Translations under genes and position numbers: made by a program
Notes under the pieces: model-generated
What the model was told of the DNA's origin: nothing
The model's database searches: none
What the model saw: the letters and a program-made list of their open reading frames with translations, nothing else
Part shown: piece by piece, positions 22,132-48,617 of the stretch
Layout of the letters: each line of letters starts with the position of its first letter
Numbering within the stretch: position 1 is the stretch's first letter
Assembly: GCA_003193925.1 (NCBI GenBank)
Contig: PSPG01000001.1
Coordinates: 1-64,000 of the forward strand
Direction: 5' to 3'
Source of the DNA: Candidatus Thalassarchaeum betae
GTDB taxonomy: Archaea > Thermoplasmatota > Poseidoniia > Poseidoniales > Thalassarchaeaceae
Length of the DNA: 64,000 nt

Positions 22132-23586
22132 CTAGAGGGTGCCCGGACCACCCACTGGAAGTTCTTCCAAGGTCCCGTTGCCGCGCAGTGAGGGGCCTAT
22201 CGTCATCGTCCCGAAGATTCCTATCTCCCCCCCGATGTTGTGCGCCAGACCGAACCAGGGCCTGCCATACTGGTCGATCACGATGTCGTTGAAGTCACCG
22301 AAGCCGCCACACCGGTTGAAGCCGCAATCCGCGGTTGTGTCGAGCGGGTCACCCCAGGCGTTCACCTGCACCGTGGTCATCAGGGGCATCTCGCTGAAGG
22401 CATCGGTGATCACGGTGAGGTATCCGTTCCAGATGTCCCCCCCAGAGTCACCCAGATAACCGAAGGCTACCTTCCCGACGCCACCAGCTGCCAGAACCGG
22501 GAATCCAGTGCCGTTGAGACCGATTGGAGGGGCGATCATCAGAGGCTCGCTCCAAGTCTCACCCTCATCCTGTGAGTAGGAGTAGTAGGGCATGTTGTCG
22601 AAACCCATCCACATCGCGTGTACGTTGTCCTCGGAGTCGGCAGCCACCTGTGCCTCCTCGAAGTTCCAGGTCTCCGCCGTCCCGGTGGTCTCGGTAGGCA
22701 GCGGGTGCTCGGTCCAAGTGATGCCACCGTTCGTACTTCGGTAGATGGAGTAGCCCTCTCCGCCGTCGCAGCCTCTGTTGCCTCGGTAGAAGTTCCCGTT
22801 CTCCGAGCCCACCATGTGTCCTGTCAGCCCGCCACTATTGCATCCATTGGGTGCACCGGGCAATTCAGGCCCCCAACTCAGCCCGCCGTCATTGCTGGTC
22901 GCACACACTGGGTATGGGTAGTTCCCATTGACGCAGAACACCCAGGTCGTCGGGTGCAGAAGCGCGGGATACGGGGAGGAGGCGATCGTCTGGTGGTCCT
23001 GGACCGACCATCCTGTCGCTACCGAGGGCCCGGTCCAGCTCTCGCCTTCGTTGTCCGACCACTCGACGGTCATCCCCAACAAGGCGTGCATGTCGAACTT
23101 CATCACCCGATCCGTCCACAGGTCGACATAGAGGTACGGGTCGTTGCTGTTAGCTACGGGTAGGAAGACGTTGTAGACGTCCTCACACACGTATTCGCTG
23201 ACGTTGTTCATACCGATCATGCCAGAGCAGCGAACTATGGCGGTCGCGCCGTTGTCCCCATTGCCCCAACTGGTCATGTAGAGGTTGTCTGCAGTCGTGG
23301 CGCCCACCGTAGGCTCGAAAGTCGTCATGCCGATGCCGTAGTAGGTGCCGAAGGCGCAGGCAGGGATATTGTCACCGACCAGCACCGAAGTGCCGTTGAA
23401 CACGTCCGATACCTTCGTTGCGTCGGTGGCGTTCGAGTAGTGGTACCAGGTGTTGTTTGCTATGCCGTCGAGACAGAGGAGCTCAAACACGTTCTCTTCG
23501 AACTCCTCGATTTCTTCCTCGCCGAAGCAGCCGCTCAGCGGCGCCGAGAACATCATCAGGACGAGGAGCCAAACCACTGCGCGCAC
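22132..23586 (-). CDS. Asp-box (BNR) repeat lipoprotein, copy 1
   Basis: 484 residues. Signal peptide with a lipobox PLSGC (Cys20), followed by an acidic tether EEEIEEFEE, so it should be a lipid-anchored surface protein. Four Asp-box motifs of the sialidase/BNR type are seen: SDNEGESW, SNDGGLSW, STNGGITW and SQDEGETW, indicating a six-bladed beta propeller. Several cysteine pairs lie in propeller loops. The sialidase catalytic arginine triad cannot be judged from sequence alone, so glycan binding or cleavage is unproven. The upstream gene is a paralogue (44 bases away) with the same layout. Confidence 0.85.
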   Translation of the reverse strand: MRAVVWLLVLMMFSAPLSGCFGEEEIEEFEENVFELLCLDGIANNTWYHYSNATDATKVSDVFNGTSVLVGDNIPACAFGTYYGIGMTTFEPTVGATTADNLYMTSWGNGDNGATAIVRCSGMIGMNNVSEYVCEDVYNVFLPVANSNDPYLYVDLWTDRVMKFDMHALLGMTVEWSDNEGESWTGPSVATGWSVQDHQTIASSPYPALLHPTTWVFCVNGNYPYPVCATSNDGGLSWGPELPGAPNGCNSGGLTGHMVGSENGNFYRGNRGCDGGEGYSIYRSTNGGITWTEHPLPTETTGTAETWNFEEAQVAADSEDNVHAMWMGFDNMPYYSYSQDEGETWSEPLMIAPPIGLNGTGFPVLAAGGVGKVAFGYLGDSGGDIWNGYLTVITDAFSEMPLMTTVQVNAWGDPLDTTADCGFNRCGGFGDFNDIVIDQYGRPWFGLAHNIGGEIGIFGTMTIGPSLRGNGTLEELPVGGPGTL

Positions 23587-23630
23587 GATGCGCGGTCATG
23601 CCTCGCATACATCAGATGAACGGCGACCTG

Positions 23631-25142
23631 TCATCCCATCTTGAGGGTTGAATTGCCCCCGACGGGCAACACGGGCAGGTAAGTCAACTCCCCGTACAGT
23701 GTCGGACCCTCCATCAGAGTCCCGATGACAGCCTCCTCAAAGCCCCGCGCGTTATGCGCCAGCGCGATCCACGGACGACCCTCATCGTCAATCTCGACAT
23801 CGATGAAATCACCGAAGCCGCCGCAGCGCACGTTGCCACAATCAGAGGTGATGTCCAACGGGTCGCCCGGGTGGTTGACCGCCACGCTAGTGATCAGCGG
23901 GCGCTCGGCGAAGGCATCGGTAATGATAGCCATGTAGCCCGACCAGCCACTTACCGAGGCATTGCTCTCGATGTCGTTCACCTCGCCGATGTAACCGAGG
24001 ACAACACGGCCCTCGGCGCCCGCGAATATGGTCGGGAAACCGGTTTCGTTGACACCTGGGGCTGCGATCATCATCGGCTCGCTCCAAGTGTCCCCCTGGT
24101 CCCTCGAGTACGCGTACCAGGGCATCATGCCGTCGCCGATCCACGTCGCGTGGACGTTGCCGCCGTCGTCCACGGCCGTAGCGACCTCGTGAGAGTGCCA
24201 GCCCTGCTGCATCCCGACCTCGGTCGTGATGGTGTGCTCGGTCCACGTGTAGCCGCCGTCGAGCGAGCGGTATACGGCGGGGCCTTCGCAAGAGGGGTTG
24301 CCCCTGTAGACCGACCCATCAATCCCTCCCACGACCTGCCCATGGAGACCCGAGCACTGGGGGAAGTGCTCACTCGGGTAGCCGATTCTCTGAGCATCCC
24401 ACGTGTGCCCGCCGGTGAGCGAGCGTGAGCATTGAGCCCCAGCAGCAGGGGAGCCCGTATTGATGCAGTAGATGTAAACCACCTCTCCTACAATGGCATT
24501 GGGGTGCGGCATCGAAGCGATGCTCTGGTGGTCTTGGGTCACATAGTAGCCTTCGACCGGGTACGGGATGCTCCACGAGTCACCGTCGTCGTCCGAATAC
24601 TCCACGAACATCGCCGCGAGCGCATGCATGTCGAACTTGACCAGCCTGTCGGTGAACTTGTCGATGTAGATGTAGGGGTCGTTCGAGTTGGGCGTCTGCC
24701 CGGAATCCTCGTCAATGGAGCCAAACGGCCCGACGTCCTCCCATGTCTGCCCCTGATCGCGGGAGCGGATGATGTGCGTGCCGTCGCCCAGCCCGTTCCA
24801 GCTGGTGAAGAATATCGCACCCGACGAGGTGACCCCGATGGTCGGCTCGAAGGTGTCGTAGCCGGTGCCGTAGTAGGTGGCGTTGGCGAAGTAAGGCGTG
24901 CTGTTCCCCGTGAGATTGGCCGTGATGTTGGCCGCGGAGACCCCCGTGGCATTGGTGGCGTCGACCGCCCACGGCTCAGCGACTGTCCCGGGGTAGTGGT
25001 ACCAGGTGGTGATTGGGACTTGCTGGTCGAACTCGAATGGACCCTTCTCCTCTTCTGCGACCTCATCGTCCTTCCACCACATGCACCCCGTCATCGCGGA
25101 GCTGAGCAGCAGCATGACGAGCAGATGTGCGAGTCTTGTCAC
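23631..25142 (-). CDS. Asp-box (BNR) repeat lipoprotein, copy 2
   Basis: 503 residues, paralogue of the next gene. Lipobox AMTGC (Cys20) after a short signal peptide, then an acidic tether. Asp-boxes SRDQGQTW, SDDDGDSW, SLDGGYTW and SRDQGDTW occur at the same places as in copy 1, and both share the opening TWYHY, the phrase DRLVKFDMHAL / DRVMKFDMHAL, HSHEV / EEAQVAA loops and a C-terminal RCGGFGDF(I/N)D block. Tandem duplication followed by divergence is clear. N-glycosylation sequons are frequent near the N-terminus. Surface exposed; substrate unknown. Confidence 0.85.
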   Translation of the reverse strand: MTRLAHLLVMLLLSSAMTGCMWWKDDEVAEEEKGPFEFDQQVPITTWYHYPGTVAEPWAVDATNATGVSAANITANLTGNSTPYFANATYYGTGYDTFEPTIGVTSSGAIFFTSWNGLGDGTHIIRSRDQGQTWEDVGPFGSIDEDSGQTPNSNDPYIYIDKFTDRLVKFDMHALAAMFVEYSDDDGDSWSIPYPVEGYYVTQDHQSIASMPHPNAIVGEVVYIYCINTGSPAAGAQCSRSLTGGHTWDAQRIGYPSEHFPQCSGLHGQVVGGIDGSVYRGNPSCEGPAVYRSLDGGYTWTEHTITTEVGMQQGWHSHEVATAVDDGGNVHATWIGDGMMPWYAYSRDQGDTWSEPMMIAAPGVNETGFPTIFAGAEGRVVLGYIGEVNDIESNASVSGWSGYMAIITDAFAERPLITSVAVNHPGDPLDITSDCGNVRCGGFGDFIDVEIDDEGRPWIALAHNARGFEEAVIGTLMEGPTLYGELTYLPVLPVGGNSTLKMG

Positions 25143-42308: not shown

Positions 42309-42720
42309 GCCGAGCATCTTCACCCTCATCATCCGAGGCGAGATACCCTGTCACAAGGTGTACGAGGACGAGCACGTCTTCGCCTTCCTCGACATCAACC
42401 CGTTCAGCCCCGGGCACACCCTTGTGGTCCCCAAGGAGCAGGCCATCACACTCGACGCCCTCTCCGACGAGTCCTCTGCGGCTATCGGAAGGGTTCTGCC
42501 GCGCATCTCGCAGGCCGTGCTCGCTGTCAGCGGGACGGTGGACTTCAACGTCCTGCAGAACAACGGCGAGGCCGCCTTCCAGTCGGTCTCCCACGTCCAC
42601 TTCCACATCATACCAAAGTCCGAAGACGGTAGCGGCCTCGCTTGGCCGTTCAAGAGCACTCAACTCGACCCCGACGAGGGAGCCCGTATGGCCGAGCAGA
42701 TACGCAACTATCTGGAATAG
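42295..42720 (+). CDS. HIT-family nucleotide hydrolase
   Basis: 141 residues. Histidine triad HVHFHII at about 101-107, preceded by FLDINPFSPGHTLVVPK and NNGEAAFQSV. Family members (Hint branch) cleave AMP or GMP from lysine, sulfate or other adducts. Typical N-terminus FTLIIRGEIPCHKVYEDE. Starts inside the end of the flavoprotein gene, so translation is coupled. Substrate unknown. Confidence 0.93.
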   Translation: MSEPEPSIFTLIIRGEIPCHKVYEDEHVFAFLDINPFSPGHTLVVPKEQAITLDALSDESSAAIGRVLPRISQAVLAVSGTVDFNVLQNNGEAAFQSVSHVHFHIIPKSEDGSGLAWPFKSTQLDPDEGARMAEQIRNYLE

Positions 42721-42788
42721 CATCGGTGCGTTCTCAATCAACCCCCTACTCGGCGTTCTCAAATAGGGCGGGTGCTCCAACTCTCTCC

Positions 42789-43421
42789 GTGAACGCCCGC
42801 GATGCCGCTTCCGCAGTCCGCGAATGGCTCCGGAGCGAACGCCTCGAGGCCCGCGACGTCGCAGACCAGCAGGCCATGCTGCACCTGCACGTCCGCTACC
42901 CTCCCACCAAGCAGGGCCACGTGTTCAATGTCGTCATCCCAAAGAATCGAAACCTCGTCCTAATCTACTCCGTCACCCGGGTCGACAACGGCCAGCAGAA
43001 GGAGATGAACAGCCACTCGGTGAACGACCCCGGAGAGTGGGAGAAGTGGCTGCACGAGATTAGGATCCACCTGACTCAGGCAGACTTGGACTGGGTTCTG
43101 CACGTCGGCAAGAAGCAAGAGGGGGTTCCTGGACCCCTGCAGGCGTTCAATCTCTCGAGGCCGGTCTGGTTCGACGGCCTGACCCAGAACGAGTTCATGC
43201 ACAATATGCGTCACCTCTGGCTCACCAAGCTCGCTCTGATTCACAAGATCAAGTTCGGGTATGGCTCAGGAGAGGGCAAGCCGGGCCCCGTCGACGACTG
43301 GATCGCCAAGAAGACCCAGAGCAGAGGCAACCAACCGCAGACTCACTCCGAGCCGACCGAGATCCACACCGACGAGACTGGTGGGTTCGGTCGTGACTTC
43401 GATCCATCCGAATGGGCTTGA
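42789..43421 (+). CDS. DUF2299-like protein
   Basis: About 210 residues from GTG (VNARDAASAVREWL); an earlier GTG at 42726 is possible. The first ~130 residues have a mixed alpha/beta pattern: VREWLRSERLEARDVADQQ, LHLHVRYPPTKQGHVFNVVIPKNRNLVLIYSV, resembling the DUF2299 family of archaea. A second part (about 120-170) is helical. The tail is charged and low-complexity, with TETGGFGRDFDPSEWA. Function unknown. 68 bases after the HIT gene. Confidence 0.7.
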   Translation: MNARDAASAVREWLRSERLEARDVADQQAMLHLHVRYPPTKQGHVFNVVIPKNRNLVLIYSVTRVDNGQQKEMNSHSVNDPGEWEKWLHEIRIHLTQADLDWVLHVGKKQEGVPGPLQAFNLSRPVWFDGLTQNEFMHNMRHLWLTKLALIHKIKFGYGSGEGKPGPVDDWIAKKTQSRGNQPQTHSEPTEIHTDETGGFGRDFDPSEWA

Positions 43422-43535: not shown

Positions 43536-46500
43536 ATGGAAACTGGAAAGATGAGAAACAGCATAACGATGGTTCTTCTGATGATGATGAGCACGTTCGC
43601 GGTGATGGAATTCCCAAAAGCCGAGGCGAGCGAGGTCGTGCTGACCGACGCCATACAGATCGTCAACGGCGGCTCCGCCAATGACAAAATGGTCACCGCA
43701 GATGCCGATTCCATGGGCAATGTGCACATCGTGTGGAGCCGCAACACCCAGCACCTCTGGTACCAGATGCACAATCCGAGAGGGGACGTGCTGATTCTAG
43801 AGACCCAGATCTCCAACCCCGGAGCGCACCGAGCATGGCATCCCGACATCAGAGTCGATCACGACGACAACGTACACATCACCTGGACGGACAAGGCCGG
43901 TCAGTGGACGATCTTCTACACCATGCTCGATCCCTCGCAGGACGACCAGGACGGTGATTCCGCTGTGGACGCAGTGATAACGATCATCGACGACTTCGAG
44001 GTCTCGGTGCATACCCAGAACAGGGACTGGCCCGCCATTGACGTCGATTCCGAGAACAACGCCCACATCGTCTGGGAGGATTCGTTCGAGCCATTGGACA
44101 AGTACTACCAGCAGCCTCAGATTTACTACTCGATGATCGAGCCAGACCTGCAGTCCCGCGAAGCAATCGTGGCTGTCGGCGAGACGCTACTCACCCCAAT
44201 CATCGGCCACAAGGGCCACCCCGACGTGGCCGTGGACGCCGATGACTTCGTCCAGATCGTCTGGGACGATACCAGAGGCGGAAAGGTCGAGATCGTGGCA
44301 CCTATCGACACCTCCGGCTCGATGAACACCGAGTGGGCCGACATGTGCGTCGTCTTCTATGGCGGCTACTTCGCCAGCGGCGGCTTCTTCGAGGGCCTCA
44401 AGCCGATGCTTTTGAGAGCCAACATGACAGTCTACGAGACCCTCTACGCTCTCAGCGGCAACTGGCCGGCCGCTGCCACCAGCGGCAATTGCGCCGCTGC
44501 TTACCAGACCGGAGGCTCCGGTGGCCAGGGACCGCGTTCGACCCCCCTCGGGCTGGTTCCCGGAGACGACTCCGGCGGAATCAGGGAGCTGACTGAGGTA
44601 GTCTACAACGGCGGCGCAGTCAATCTGCCTCAGGATGGTGGCTACTACAGCGAATTCTGGGGCCCCGGCTCCAATTGGGCTTGTTTGTCGTGGCGAGACG
44701 CCCAAGGCAACGTCCCAGGCAATCCTCCGACCCAGTTGGATCACCACTGGAATCCCAACGCGACCAAGATCGTCATCCCGATCTCCGACGAGGGCCCGTA
44801 CGGCGGCGACCCCGCGCAGCAGTCAGATGACACCCAGAGCATCAACGAGGCTCACGACGCCTGCGTCATCGCCGGCATCATCCCGGTCCCACTGCTCGCT
44901 GCCGGATTCGGGGCTGGCTCCACAAACGTCGGCTCCCACATGATGGACCTCGCCCAGTGCCCGAACGGCTTCATCAGCCTAGGCACGAGGACATGCCCCG
45001 GGACCAACACGCGTCTGACCGATGCCGAGGGGATGATGTACAGCTTCCCGACGTCCTCTTCGAACTCGGCCGAGTTGCAGCTGATGGTCGAAGCCATGGT
45101 CTACCTGTCCACGAACAACTCGCGAGAGATATTCATGACAGTTCTAGACCCCCTCTCCCTCCTGCAGAACCCGCCTCCGACTTGGCAGAAGGGCGACTCG
45201 GGAACCTTCGTCGACTACACTGCTGACAGGTACATCGAGGACATCGGCCCATCCATCGACGGCCTCGGCTACGGCAACCTGGTTGTTGTCAACGACACCA
45301 GAATCACCCTCAACGACGCCTACAGCCTCCATCCGGCGATTTCGGTCGACACCTCCGGCAACACCCACCTCGCTTGGATGGACGGGCGCGCCTACGGCTT
45401 CGACATCGACGTCAATTACGAAATCTACTACACCCGTCTGCGACTGAGGGGAGCGGGCGAGTGGGATGGCGCCCCGGACGGACTGCCTTCCTACGGAATC
45501 AAGCAGATTGTCGATTCGGCGGTCTCCGAAGTCGAGGGAATCGACGGGATCCCGACGGACCTGCCGTTCGGAGCCAATTCGCACATGCCTGCGATAATCA
45601 CGGACTCGTTCGACAACGTGCACCTCTCGTGGCTGGACAATTACAATGGGACTCAGGGTGAGACCGTCGTCTACACTAAGCTAAACCACACCAACGACGA
45701 CTACCCCGAAGGCTTCCCGCTGAACTCACTCGCAGCCGGCATCCTCGACCCGTGGGAGATCATCCCCATCACCGAGTGGCAGTCTGACAAACTGGGCCCG
45801 AACTCTCCGGCCGTCCCCGACCTCGGCCAGCCCCCGGCATTCGCCAATGACCTAGGCAGCGGGGCCCACATCGCTTGGTCAGACACCAACAAGTGCAGCG
45901 AAATAAGCAACGGCGGCTCCTACACGCTGTGCTACGTACACGTCCTGACCGGTCTCGTCGAGGTCGCCCTCGACGAGACCGAGACCTACTACCACACTAT
46001 CGAGCCCGGCGAGCAGACTCTGTACAACATGACGATCTCGAACCCGACCCCCGGGCCGGCAGAACTGGTCGCCGACACGTTCACCGTGACCCTGGAGGGG
46101 GTCCCTAACAACTGGACCGCTACTCTGTTCTTCACCACGAATCACACACCGATATTCGACTCTACTCCGGTATTCCTCCGAGGAGGTGACGTGGTTCCGA
46201 TGTACATGCGTGTCCGCGCTCCGTCAATCTATCAGGCGCACGGCGACGAGTTGGCAACGATTACGGTGTCTGCAGTGTCCTACAAGGACCCAGCCATACG
46301 AGACGAGAGGCTCACGCTGACGCTGATGGACGTGGTACATGGCATCAACCTCGATACCAGCCACTTCCAGGTCGATGTCGAACAGGGGCAGTCCGCGATA
46401 TTCTCGATTACGGTGACGAATACAGGGAACGTGTACGATACCTTCGCCTTCTACGATCCATCCACTTTAGAGGGTCAGGTCGAATGGGCCCTGCCATTCG

Positions 46501-48617
46501 GTTGGGGGATCTCCTTCCCGACCTCGTTATCTTTAGACCCGGGTCAGTCGATAACACGCAACCTGCAGATCAGTGTACCCACCTCCCAGGAGCCGGGGAC
46601 CTTCGTAATCTACCTGAAGGGATGGTCCACTGGAGAGCCTGTGCTGTCCATCGACCAAGGGACCTTCGACGTCCTCGAGCTGTGGATCAATGTCTCGATC
46701 AAGAGCACCGGCAACATCGTGTTCCAACTGGGTGACACCACCCAGTACGTTTTGCCTGGCGACTGCTCGGAATTCGATATACAAGTCACCAAGCACTTCA
46801 CTCCCGGTCACCTGATATTCACCACACCCGGAGGCCCTGAGGAAAGGCCTCCGGAGATCTCCGAGCAGACATGGAGATTCGACCACTGGACCGTCGACTT
46901 GGACTTCTCCGAAGCACCGGGAGGCAATGGGATACCCGATTACTCACCTCGTTACTGGTCCATAATCGACACACCGTTCACGGTCACGGCAATCATGTGC
47001 GCGCCGTACAACGCCACTGCCGGCTTGGGTGACTCGGTCTCTGTGAAGGCCCATCTCCAAGGCGCGCCACGCGTACGCGACTCCGTGGTCCTGCTGACGA
47101 ACGTGGTTCAGGAGTACATCCTCGAGGCGAGCGTCCCCGAGACCATACTCGCATTGCACCCAGGGCAGTCCTATCAGCTGGATACCACCGTCGAGAACAA
47201 GGGCAACGGGGCCGACAGATACGACATCACCGTGGCCTCGATTACCGATTCGTTCGGAGGCTCGCACGTCTGGGACGTAGAAATCCCAAGGATACTGTTC
47301 CAAGAGCTGGATCGTGACGAATCGCAGACCGTCCCAATCCTCCTCAACGTTCCCGAGATGACCCATGCAGGCCAGTACACTGTGATTCTGAATGTCCTCA
47401 GCGAGGAGGCCTACGAGGGCACTAAACTGCGTGACACCATCGAGTTGCAAGTCGAGGTCGTGGAGTTCCACGACATGAGGATCGAAGTCGATCCGTTGGT
47501 CGAGAGTCGAATCAAGACGACTGCTCCCGGTAGAATCGTCAGATTCACCATGAACGTCACCAATTTCGGCAACATGCCCGACCAGCCCACTCTGCACAAC
47601 CACACGATAGTCATCGGCGCGGGCTGGGACACCGTGCCCGGCATGAACACGCTGAGCGACTGGCAGATTTCCTTCGCACTGCTCGAGGACTTCAACACGG
47701 AGTACCCGACCGAGAAGCCCTGCGTCGCTCTGATGCTGGGCGATCAGGTACCTACCGAGGGTTGCTACCTCGATGCGACTACCAACGCTGTCACCCTGCC
47801 AATGATGGAGGCATACTCCACTCTGCAAATCGTCGTGATAATCGCAATCGACCCAACCGCGTCTCTGTCTAACAGGGAGATTGGAATCAAAGTCCTCTCG
47901 TCATTCGGCTCGGCTGAAGCCGGAGGAGACTACGACGAGACCGCGGTGTGGGACGACTCCTGCACACTCGACGAGAACAAGGACGGACTCCCGGACAACT
48001 ACCCCCCGAACTGCGATACCAACGAGCAAATCGTCGAGTTGCGCCTGCGAGCGCCGGATTTGAAGATACTCGATGTTGATGTGGTGACCTATACCGGCGA
48101 TGTCGGAGAGATGCTATCGGTGAACGTACAAGTCGTCAACGTTGGCAACGCGCACGCCACAAACGTCAACATAATCCTCTGCGTCGACCAGTCTAAGTCC
48201 GACATCAAGAAGAACGGATGTGACGAGGGGAACATCGTCTACCGCCAGATCGTCCAAGCTATCATGCCTGCAAATGATGAGGATCCACCTCTAATCGCCC
48301 TACTGTACATGGTCCAGGCCGGCAGGCACGATGTCGTCGTCGTGGTCGACCCAGACAATGTGATCGTTGAGACCGACGAGACCAACAACATTCAGAAGGT
48401 CTCTAAGAAGATGGGCTCCAATCTGGGCATTCTGGATGTCGGCATCGAAGTCATTGCTCAGTACTCCGTACCGGCCATCATCCTCGGTGCCACCTTCGCC
48501 CTGATTGGCGTTGTCGGCGTGGTGATGTACGGACGCAGGATAGAGGCTCTCACTAGGTTCGCCGAGAAGAGCAGCCTAATCGCCAACCTCGACGACGACG
48601 ATGACATGGTCTTCTGA
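43536..48617 (+). CDS. Giant surface protein: propeller repeats, VWA-like insert, NEW3/CARDB domains, C-terminal anchor
   Basis: 1693 residues from an ATG seven bases after GGAGG. Signal peptide at about 8-31. Repeats of the form V-D-x-x-x-N-x-H-I-x-W-x-D (DSMGNVHIVW, DHDDNVHITW, DSENNAHIVW, DADDFVQIVW, DTSGNTHLAW, DSFDNVHLSW) indicate a beta propeller. Between repeats four and five lies a VWA-like insert, about 250-545, with the MIDAS motif DTSGSM (258-263) and KIVIPISDEG (about 410). The middle carries immunoglobulin-like NEW3/CARDB domains (for example VEQGQSAIFSITVTNTGN). The last CARDB domain ends VIVETDETNN. A membrane helix at about 1643-1666 and an acidic tail DDDDDMVF follow. Likely a surface adhesin or S-layer-associated protein. 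Confidence 0.88.
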   Translation: METGKMRNSITMVLLMMMSTFAVMEFPKAEASEVVLTDAIQIVNGGSANDKMVTADADSMGNVHIVWSRNTQHLWYQMHNPRGDVLILETQISNPGAHRAWHPDIRVDHDDNVHITWTDKAGQWTIFYTMLDPSQDDQDGDSAVDAVITIIDDFEVSVHTQNRDWPAIDVDSENNAHIVWEDSFEPLDKYYQQPQIYYSMIEPDLQSREAIVAVGETLLTPIIGHKGHPDVAVDADDFVQIVWDDTRGGKVEIVAPIDTSGSMNTEWADMCVVFYGGYFASGGFFEGLKPMLLRANMTVYETLYALSGNWPAAATSGNCAAAYQTGGSGGQGPRSTPLGLVPGDDSGGIRELTEVVYNGGAVNLPQDGGYYSEFWGPGSNWACLSWRDAQGNVPGNPPTQLDHHWNPNATKIVIPISDEGPYGGDPAQQSDDTQSINEAHDACVIAGIIPVPLLAAGFGAGSTNVGSHMMDLAQCPNGFISLGTRTCPGTNTRLTDAEGMMYSFPTSSSNSAELQLMVEAMVYLSTNNSREIFMTVLDPLSLLQNPPPTWQKGDSGTFVDYTADRYIEDIGPSIDGLGYGNLVVVNDTRITLNDAYSLHPAISVDTSGNTHLAWMDGRAYGFDIDVNYEIYYTRLRLRGAGEWDGAPDGLPSYGIKQIVDSAVSEVEGIDGIPTDLPFGANSHMPAIITDSFDNVHLSWLDNYNGTQGETVVYTKLNHTNDDYPEGFPLNSLAAGILDPWEIIPITEWQSDKLGPNSPAVPDLGQPPAFANDLGSGAHIAWSDTNKCSEISNGGSYTLCYVHVLTGLVEVALDETETYYHTIEPGEQTLYNMTISNPTPGPAELVADTFTVTLEGVPNNWTATLFFTTNHTPIFDSTPVFLRGGDVVPMYMRVRAPSIYQAHGDELATITVSAVSYKDPAIRDERLTLTLMDVVHGINLDTSHFQVDVEQGQSAIFSITVTNTGNVYDTFAFYDPSTLEGQVEWALPFGWGISFPTSLSLDPGQSITRNLQISVPTSQEPGTFVIYLKGWSTGEPVLSIDQGTFDVLELWINVSIKSTGNIVFQLGDTTQYVLPGDCSEFDIQVTKHFTPGHLIFTTPGGPEERPPEISEQTWRFDHWTVDLDFSEAPGGNGIPDYSPRYWSIIDTPFTVTAIMCAPYNATAGLGDSVSVKAHLQGAPRVRDSVVLLTNVVQEYILEASVPETILALHPGQSYQLDTTVENKGNGADRYDITVASITDSFGGSHVWDVEIPRILFQELDRDESQTVPILLNVPEMTHAGQYTVILNVLSEEAYEGTKLRDTIELQVEVVEFHDMRIEVDPLVESRIKTTAPGRIVRFTMNVTNFGNMPDQPTLHNHTIVIGAGWDTVPGMNTLSDWQISFALLEDFNTEYPTEKPCVALMLGDQVPTEGCYLDATTNAVTLPMMEAYSTLQIVVIIAIDPTASLSNREIGIKVLSSFGSAEAGGDYDETAVWDDSCTLDENKDGLPDNYPPNCDTNEQIVELRLRAPDLKILDVDVVTYTGDVGEMLSVNVQVVNVGNAHATNVNIILCVDQSKSDIKKNGCDEGNIVYRQIVQAIMPANDEDPPLIALLYMVQAGRHDVVVVVDPDNVIVETDETNNIQKVSKKMGSNLGILDVGIEVIAQYSVPAIILGATFALIGVVGVVMYGRRIEALTRFAEKSSLIANLDDDDDMVF

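Follow-up and report, generated by a model that had tools for sequence, protein, structure and literature searches.

The gene at 43536..48617 (+) of the window, the stretch of 64,000 nucleotides analysed here, encodes a protein of 1693 amino acids in which a predicted von Willebrand A (VWA) domain is inserted into one blade of a seven-bladed beta-propeller, followed by a stalk of Ig-like domains and a single C-terminal transmembrane helix. In the Poseidoniales it probably serves at the cell surface as a receptor or adhesin, anchored as a single-pass type I membrane protein and functioning in the manner of an integrin alpha-I chain.

Overall architecture

The features of the gene are as follows, with the basis of each assignment in brackets.

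43536..48617, + strand: whole gene of the surface protein, propeller(VWA)-Ig stalk-transmembrane (open reading frame, orthologues)
43536..43628, + strand: Sec-type signal peptide, residues 1-31, ending ...AEA/S (sequence inspection; variable N-terminus, entropy 1.79)
43632..44282, + strand: first part of the propeller (residues 33-249), comprising the closing strand, the first three blades and strands A and B of blade 4 (motifs, model DSSP, propeller profile)
44283..45125, + strand: predicted VWA domain (residues 250-530), in the loop that joins strands B and C of blade 4 (profiles, model, Foldseek)
44307..44321, + strand: loop 1 of the putative metal-ion adhesion site (MIDAS), D258-T-S260-G-S262 (D258 and S260 invariant, S262 in 94/96 homologues)
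44652..44672, + strand: MIDAS loop 2 candidate, E373-x-W-G-P-x-S/T379 (E373 in 96/96; Ser or Thr at 379 in 85/96)
44775..44795, + strand: MIDAS loop 3 strand, IPIS-D418-E-G (D418 in 96/96; aligns with VITDG of integrin alpha-M)
45126..45980, + strand: second part of the propeller (residues 531-815), with strands C and D of blade 4 followed by blades 5-7 (motifs, model DSSP)
45981..48410, + strand: stalk of Ig-like domains (Pfam; choice-of-anchor-T match)
48462..48530, + strand: single C-terminal transmembrane helix, residues ~1643-1665 (hydropathy; conserved YSVPAIILGATxALxxVAxVVM)
48531..48614, + strand: cytoplasmic tail with a conserved juxtamembrane motif, GRRxEAxxRxAEK/QSSL, and an acidic end (aligned tails of homologues)

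Within the stalk, Pfam recognizes NEW3 (PF10633, residues 950-1025), Ig_VWA7 (1206-1287) and CARDB (1506-1619, E 2e-12) domains. The protein is acidic in composition and contains many conserved cysteines, and it is predicted to lie outside the cell on account of the signal peptide, the near-invariant cysteines, the Ig-like stalk and the C-terminal transmembrane helix.

Seven xHxxW blade motifs are found, four on the N-terminal side of the insert (63, 113, 176 and 239) and three on its C-terminal side (610, 695 and 777). In the AlphaFold2 model of the propeller with its insert (residues 33-935; pLDDT 85.9, pTM 0.79), strand B of blade 4 (239-245, VQIVWDD) leads directly into the first strand of the VWA domain (250-257), and the chain re-enters blade 4 at 530-537 (SREIFMTV), which forms strand C. 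Insert-free propellers of the same type from other Thermoplasmatota read W-x-D-x-R-x-G-x-x-EIYY at this point, so that an empty site in the present protein would be DDTRGG joined to REIFMTV. The B-C loops of a propeller share a face with the blade-to-blade D-A loops, where integrins carry their I domain. An initial annotation, made from the sequence before this analysis, had already placed a VWA-like insert inside a propeller, and both the strand order of the model and the insert-free blades bear this out; its six propeller repeats become seven and its insert of about 290 residues becomes one of about 281 (250-530), whereas its NEW3/CARDB domains and its C-terminal helix with an acidic tail were recovered as described. 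Elsewhere in the window, at 22132-25142 (-), two adjacent genes encode BNR/Asp-box repeat proteins of 484 and 503 amino acids, which are weakly similar to the propeller.

Fold of the insert

The insert is a VWA domain according to two independent lines, a sequence bridge and a predicted structure. The assignment rests on these because Pfam VWA models and searches of PDB sequences gave no match: the insert alignment (A1) had no significant Pfam match and no PDB sequence match, and PF00092 and PF13519 found nothing in the genome, both models thus also missing the VWA domain of this insert. The bridge is formed by large proteins of another Thermoplasmatota family that are weakly matched by the insert profile in a profile search. 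These proteins align to the insert over three loops (DTSGSM, ESWGxxT and SDE), and two of the four bridging domains scanned (L124 and L126) exceed the Pfam cut-off for a VWA domain (PF00092). A search of the entire set of PDB sequences with the enlarged insert profile (A3), run to E < 10, gave three matches. All three are integrin alpha I domains in which loops 1 and 3 align correctly; their E values of 0.2-0.7 are individually not significant.

Modelled alone with AlphaFold2 (pLDDT 87.9, pTM 0.88), the insert is predicted to adopt a Rossmann-like fold of alternating beta and alpha elements. Foldseek searches of this model against the PDB returned overwhelmingly VWA/I domains, with TM-scores by target of 0.5-0.55, from integrin beta and alpha, TEM8, Rpn10, NorD, SpaC and PitA; the best structural matches were integrin beta-I domains. 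The VWA-like fold proposed in the initial annotation, for which structure prediction had been suggested as the check, is therefore the fold predicted here, with DTSGSM at residues 258-263 as it had stated and the later IPISDEG strand at 414-420.

In the other Thermoplasmatota family, several large proteins (L124, L125, L127 and L128) carry a stand-alone VWA domain of this ESWGxxT...SDE subtype, a sequence subfamily that is missed or barely caught by Pfam.

Putative metal site and conservation

All five putative MIDAS residues, D258, S260, S262, E373 and D418, occur together in 94 of the 96 aligned homologues. Position 379, the equivalent of the canonical MIDAS threonine, is alanine in those homologues that do not have serine or threonine. 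Since the MIDAS of integrin beta3 is formed by S121, S123 and E220 (PMC3792891), and the invariant residue of loop 2 in the archaeal protein is E373, the archaeal site is best read, from the alignment, as a Glu-type MIDAS such as that of integrin beta-I domains. Loops 1 and 3 are complete, and the candidate loop 2 is present in a glutamate form in which the threonine position is not invariant; neither the second nor the third loop, whose absence would have spoken against the initial annotation, is missing. The insert also has six cysteines, at positions 271, 319, 383, 443, 475 and 487, that are essentially invariant, which is consistent with three disulfides and with an extracellular location.

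The insert is the least variable part of the protein as judged by column entropy, which is lowest around blade 4, VWA loop 1 and loops 2-3 and increases along the stalk, so that selection acts on the metal-site face. The conservation of the MIDAS residues and the entropy minimum in the same region together place the observation beyond chance.

Distribution and genomic context

Over 45 nearly complete orthologues were recovered, with uninterrupted reading frames of ~1700 amino acids and 57-90% identity to the protein. The closest named relative is the full-length homologue of 'Candidatus Thalassarchaeum betae' (90% identity), which places the window in a genome of the Thalassarchaeaceae (Marine Group IIb, Poseidoniales). 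Within this family the insert was detected in 136 of the 148 genomes searched and, across the Poseidoniales, in 140 of 146 genomes, covering both families and all 21 sampled genera. It was absent from all six genomes sampled from related orders of the class, and in the rest of the phylum (Thermoplasmatota) only the weak bridging matches to the insert profile were found. IMG/VR contigs and phage records yielded no viral homologue. On its own, the propeller half is widespread across the phylum at low similarity. By comparison of the propeller and insert match tables by eye, 59 of the 60 strong propeller matches in the Poseidoniales run directly into the insert and the remaining one ends at a contig edge; no insert-free version was seen among the Poseidoniales matches. 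Because the strong propeller matches continue into the insert in this way, the propeller-VWA fusion is most likely ancestral to the order.

A second paralogue type, common in the genus, carries the same head on a stalk of ~19 DxDxDG thrombospondin type 3 calcium-binding repeats and ends in a different tail. These paralogues may be the widespread thrombospondin genes recorded by Rinke et al. (PMC6461757). On the cytoplasmic side, their tails (L059-L070) end in a conserved LSDLGYSPEVAxAIxxxE, which in sequence resembles a UBA-type helix pair. One paralogue type (L077:7475-12709, contig C4 of assembly G000), whose stalk consists of DxDxDG repeats like those of thrombospondin type 3, has a further insert of ~250 residues within the VWA domain, before its last helix. 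Another protein, of 1498 amino acids (L076, contig C13 of G000), combines the propeller and VWA domain with calcium repeats, has no close relatives in the genus and is either a rare paralogue or the product of another misbinned contig.

A full-length copy with 58% identity on a 6.4 kb contig of the same assembly (L072, contig C14) was considered as a paralogue and rejected. Its neighbourhood is the orthologous one (an acyltransferase fragment, DUF2299 and then the surface-protein gene), it shares 76-78% identity with orthologues from other genera, and no such copy was found in any of the 12 other genomes of the genus; for these reasons the contig is probably misbinned in the assembly.

Gene order around the surface-protein gene is conserved among orthologous genomes. 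The neighbours encode a HIT protein, a DUF2299 protein, an HTH regulator, topoisomerase VI, aconitase and ribonucleotide reductase; these are conserved yet functionally unrelated, and an operon-based assignment of function was therefore rejected, the synteny giving no functional clue. In orthologous loci, a gene for an acyltransferase of ~520 amino acids (PF01553) lies between the HIT and DUF2299 genes. At 42642-43421, compared with L001:7265-10001, the window lacks ~1.45 kb and retains ~28 codons of the start of the acyltransferase gene, which represents either a real deletion or an assembly collapse.

Proposed function

Selection on the metal-site face points to a metal-dependent adhesion or receptor function. 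The analysis establishes the existence and conservation of the gene, the succession of its domains and, as a prediction, a VWA fold in which the metal-site residues are kept; how the protein binds metal and ligand and uses its tail is inferred, as is the adhesion or particle attachment put forward in the initial annotation. The seven-bladed propeller would present an exposed VWA domain on one loop face, and the VWA domain would bind a divalent metal (Mg2+/Mn2+) through D258, S260, S262, E373 and D418. The bound metal would in turn hold an acidic group of a ligand, whether this is a protein, some polysaccharide or particle surface, or a partner cell. The Ig-like domains, stabilized by disulfides, would raise the head off the membrane, and the conserved juxtamembrane tail may contact something inside the cell. 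A genuine integrin-like receptor, in which ligand capture by the VWA domain changes the head and the change passes through the stalk and transmembrane helix to the tail motif conserved across the order, would amount to adhesion-coupled signalling that arose independently of animals; we regard this stronger form as quite improbable.

The main rival to an adhesin or receptor is a structural role in the envelope, of the S-layer type, in which heads and Ig stalks would form a lattice or canopy and the VWA metal site would mediate head-to-head contacts instead of binding foreign ligands. A protein that is near-universal in the Poseidoniales, with a long Ig-rich stalk, a C-terminal transmembrane anchor, many conserved cysteines and an acidic composition, would suit such a role, and no Poseidoniales S-layer gene was found in the open-access Marine Group II literature searched. 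However, conservation is highest at the metal-site face and not in the stalk, and the common second paralogue places the same head on a different stalk, both of which are less expected of a lattice former, and we consider this role possible but unlikely.

The best fold matches include sialidases and glycan-active propellers, and a relative of the protein gives a weak BNR_4 match, as though the BNR/sialidase-like propeller might serve in substrate capture as a glycan lectin or as a hydrolase, with the VWA domain as an accessory. Pfam found no BNR match in the 1693-residue protein or in its propeller halves, searches of the protein with Pfam and other family collections gave no curated enzyme family, no conserved catalytic set was identified, and conservation is strongest in the VWA domain rather than the propeller, which makes a glycan-directed function very unlikely. 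That the VWA domain belongs to an intracellular-assembly type, a chaperone or scaffold that loads partners by its metal site and is only incidentally exposed at the surface, is hardly credible: some fold matches are the VWA domains of NorD and Rpn10, but the signal peptide, near-invariant cysteines, Ig-like stalk and transmembrane helix place the protein outside the cell, and no MoxR-type gene was present among the flanking genes examined.

Significance

Among the planktonic archaea of surface waters, those of Marine Group II are the most abundant; they are uncultured. It is disputed whether they attach to particles and by what means: archaella, thrombospondins and flotillin have been put forward (PMC6461757), whereas North Sea cells were found by FISH to be mostly free-living (PMC6864105), a finding that weakens obligate particle attachment. 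The surface protein is not described in the open-access Marine Group II literature searched. A surface protein that is near-universal, strongly conserved and predicted to bind through a metal-dependent site offers a concrete molecule for the attachment question, and it is notable both for its order-wide presence in ocean archaea and for its parallel with integrin alpha-I chains, neither of which had been recognized in the initial annotation.

Comparison with known proteins

Pilus-tip proteins of the PilY1 family are prokaryotic surface adhesins that also combine a VWA domain with a beta-propeller. In PilY1 the VWA domain is N-terminal to the propeller and not inserted in it, and there is neither an Ig stalk nor a C-terminal transmembrane helix of its own. 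The pilus tip adhesins SpaC and PitA, which are among the fold matches of the archaeal insert, likewise use a VWA/MIDAS domain for attachment; to our knowledge, this domain has no framing propeller in either of them. A VWA/MIDAS domain for attachment is also shared with the MIDAS-family adhesin Bd0875 of Bdellovibrio (PMC11003981). Surface adhesins with a VWA/MIDAS domain are known; what is new in the archaeal protein is that this domain sits within a propeller carried by an Ig stalk. BNR/Asp-box sialidase-like propellers are fold matches that share the blade pattern PxIAVDxxGNxHVVWxDxRxGxxEIYY; the archaeal protein differs from them in having no catalytic family match and in its inserted VWA domain.

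When the propeller with its insert was searched against 350,542 PDB chains with Foldseek, the best match was integrin alphaXbeta2 (E 9e-10); integrin alphaE (two entries) and another alphaX ranked third to fifth, and sialidases were also among the top matches. TM-scores of the whole model to integrins are low (0.17-0.28, rmsd ~20), and the match is therefore one of the set of folds and their order, not of a single superposable head. The archaeal protein shares several features with the integrin alpha-I chains (alphaX, alphaE and alphaM): a loop of its seven-bladed propeller accommodates a VWA domain, the stalk is Ig-like, and a single transmembrane helix at the C-terminus is followed by a short tail whose juxtamembrane motif is conserved. 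The I domain of integrin alpha sits between blades 2 and 3 (PMC12422189), whereas the archaeal insertion lies in the B-C loop of blade 4. Unlike integrin alpha, neither the whole protein nor its propeller halves match FG-GAP repeats (PF01839); the archaeal stalk is of the NEW3/CARDB type, and the host is an archaeon rather than a chordate. Integrin beta-I domains share with the archaeal domain a second MIDAS loop with an invariant glutamate (E220 of beta3; PMC3792891), but are housed in the hybrid domain, not in a propeller. No integrin-like beta partner was recognized in the genome with PF00092 and PF13519, models that are blind to the present VWA domain too. Membership of the integrin family was rejected on account of the missing FG-GAP repeats and the different insertion loop. 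The protein is integrin-alpha-I-like by architecture, and the likeness is most likely a convergence. A propeller with an inserted VWA domain, which the literature searched describes for chordate integrins, would seem to have arisen at least twice.
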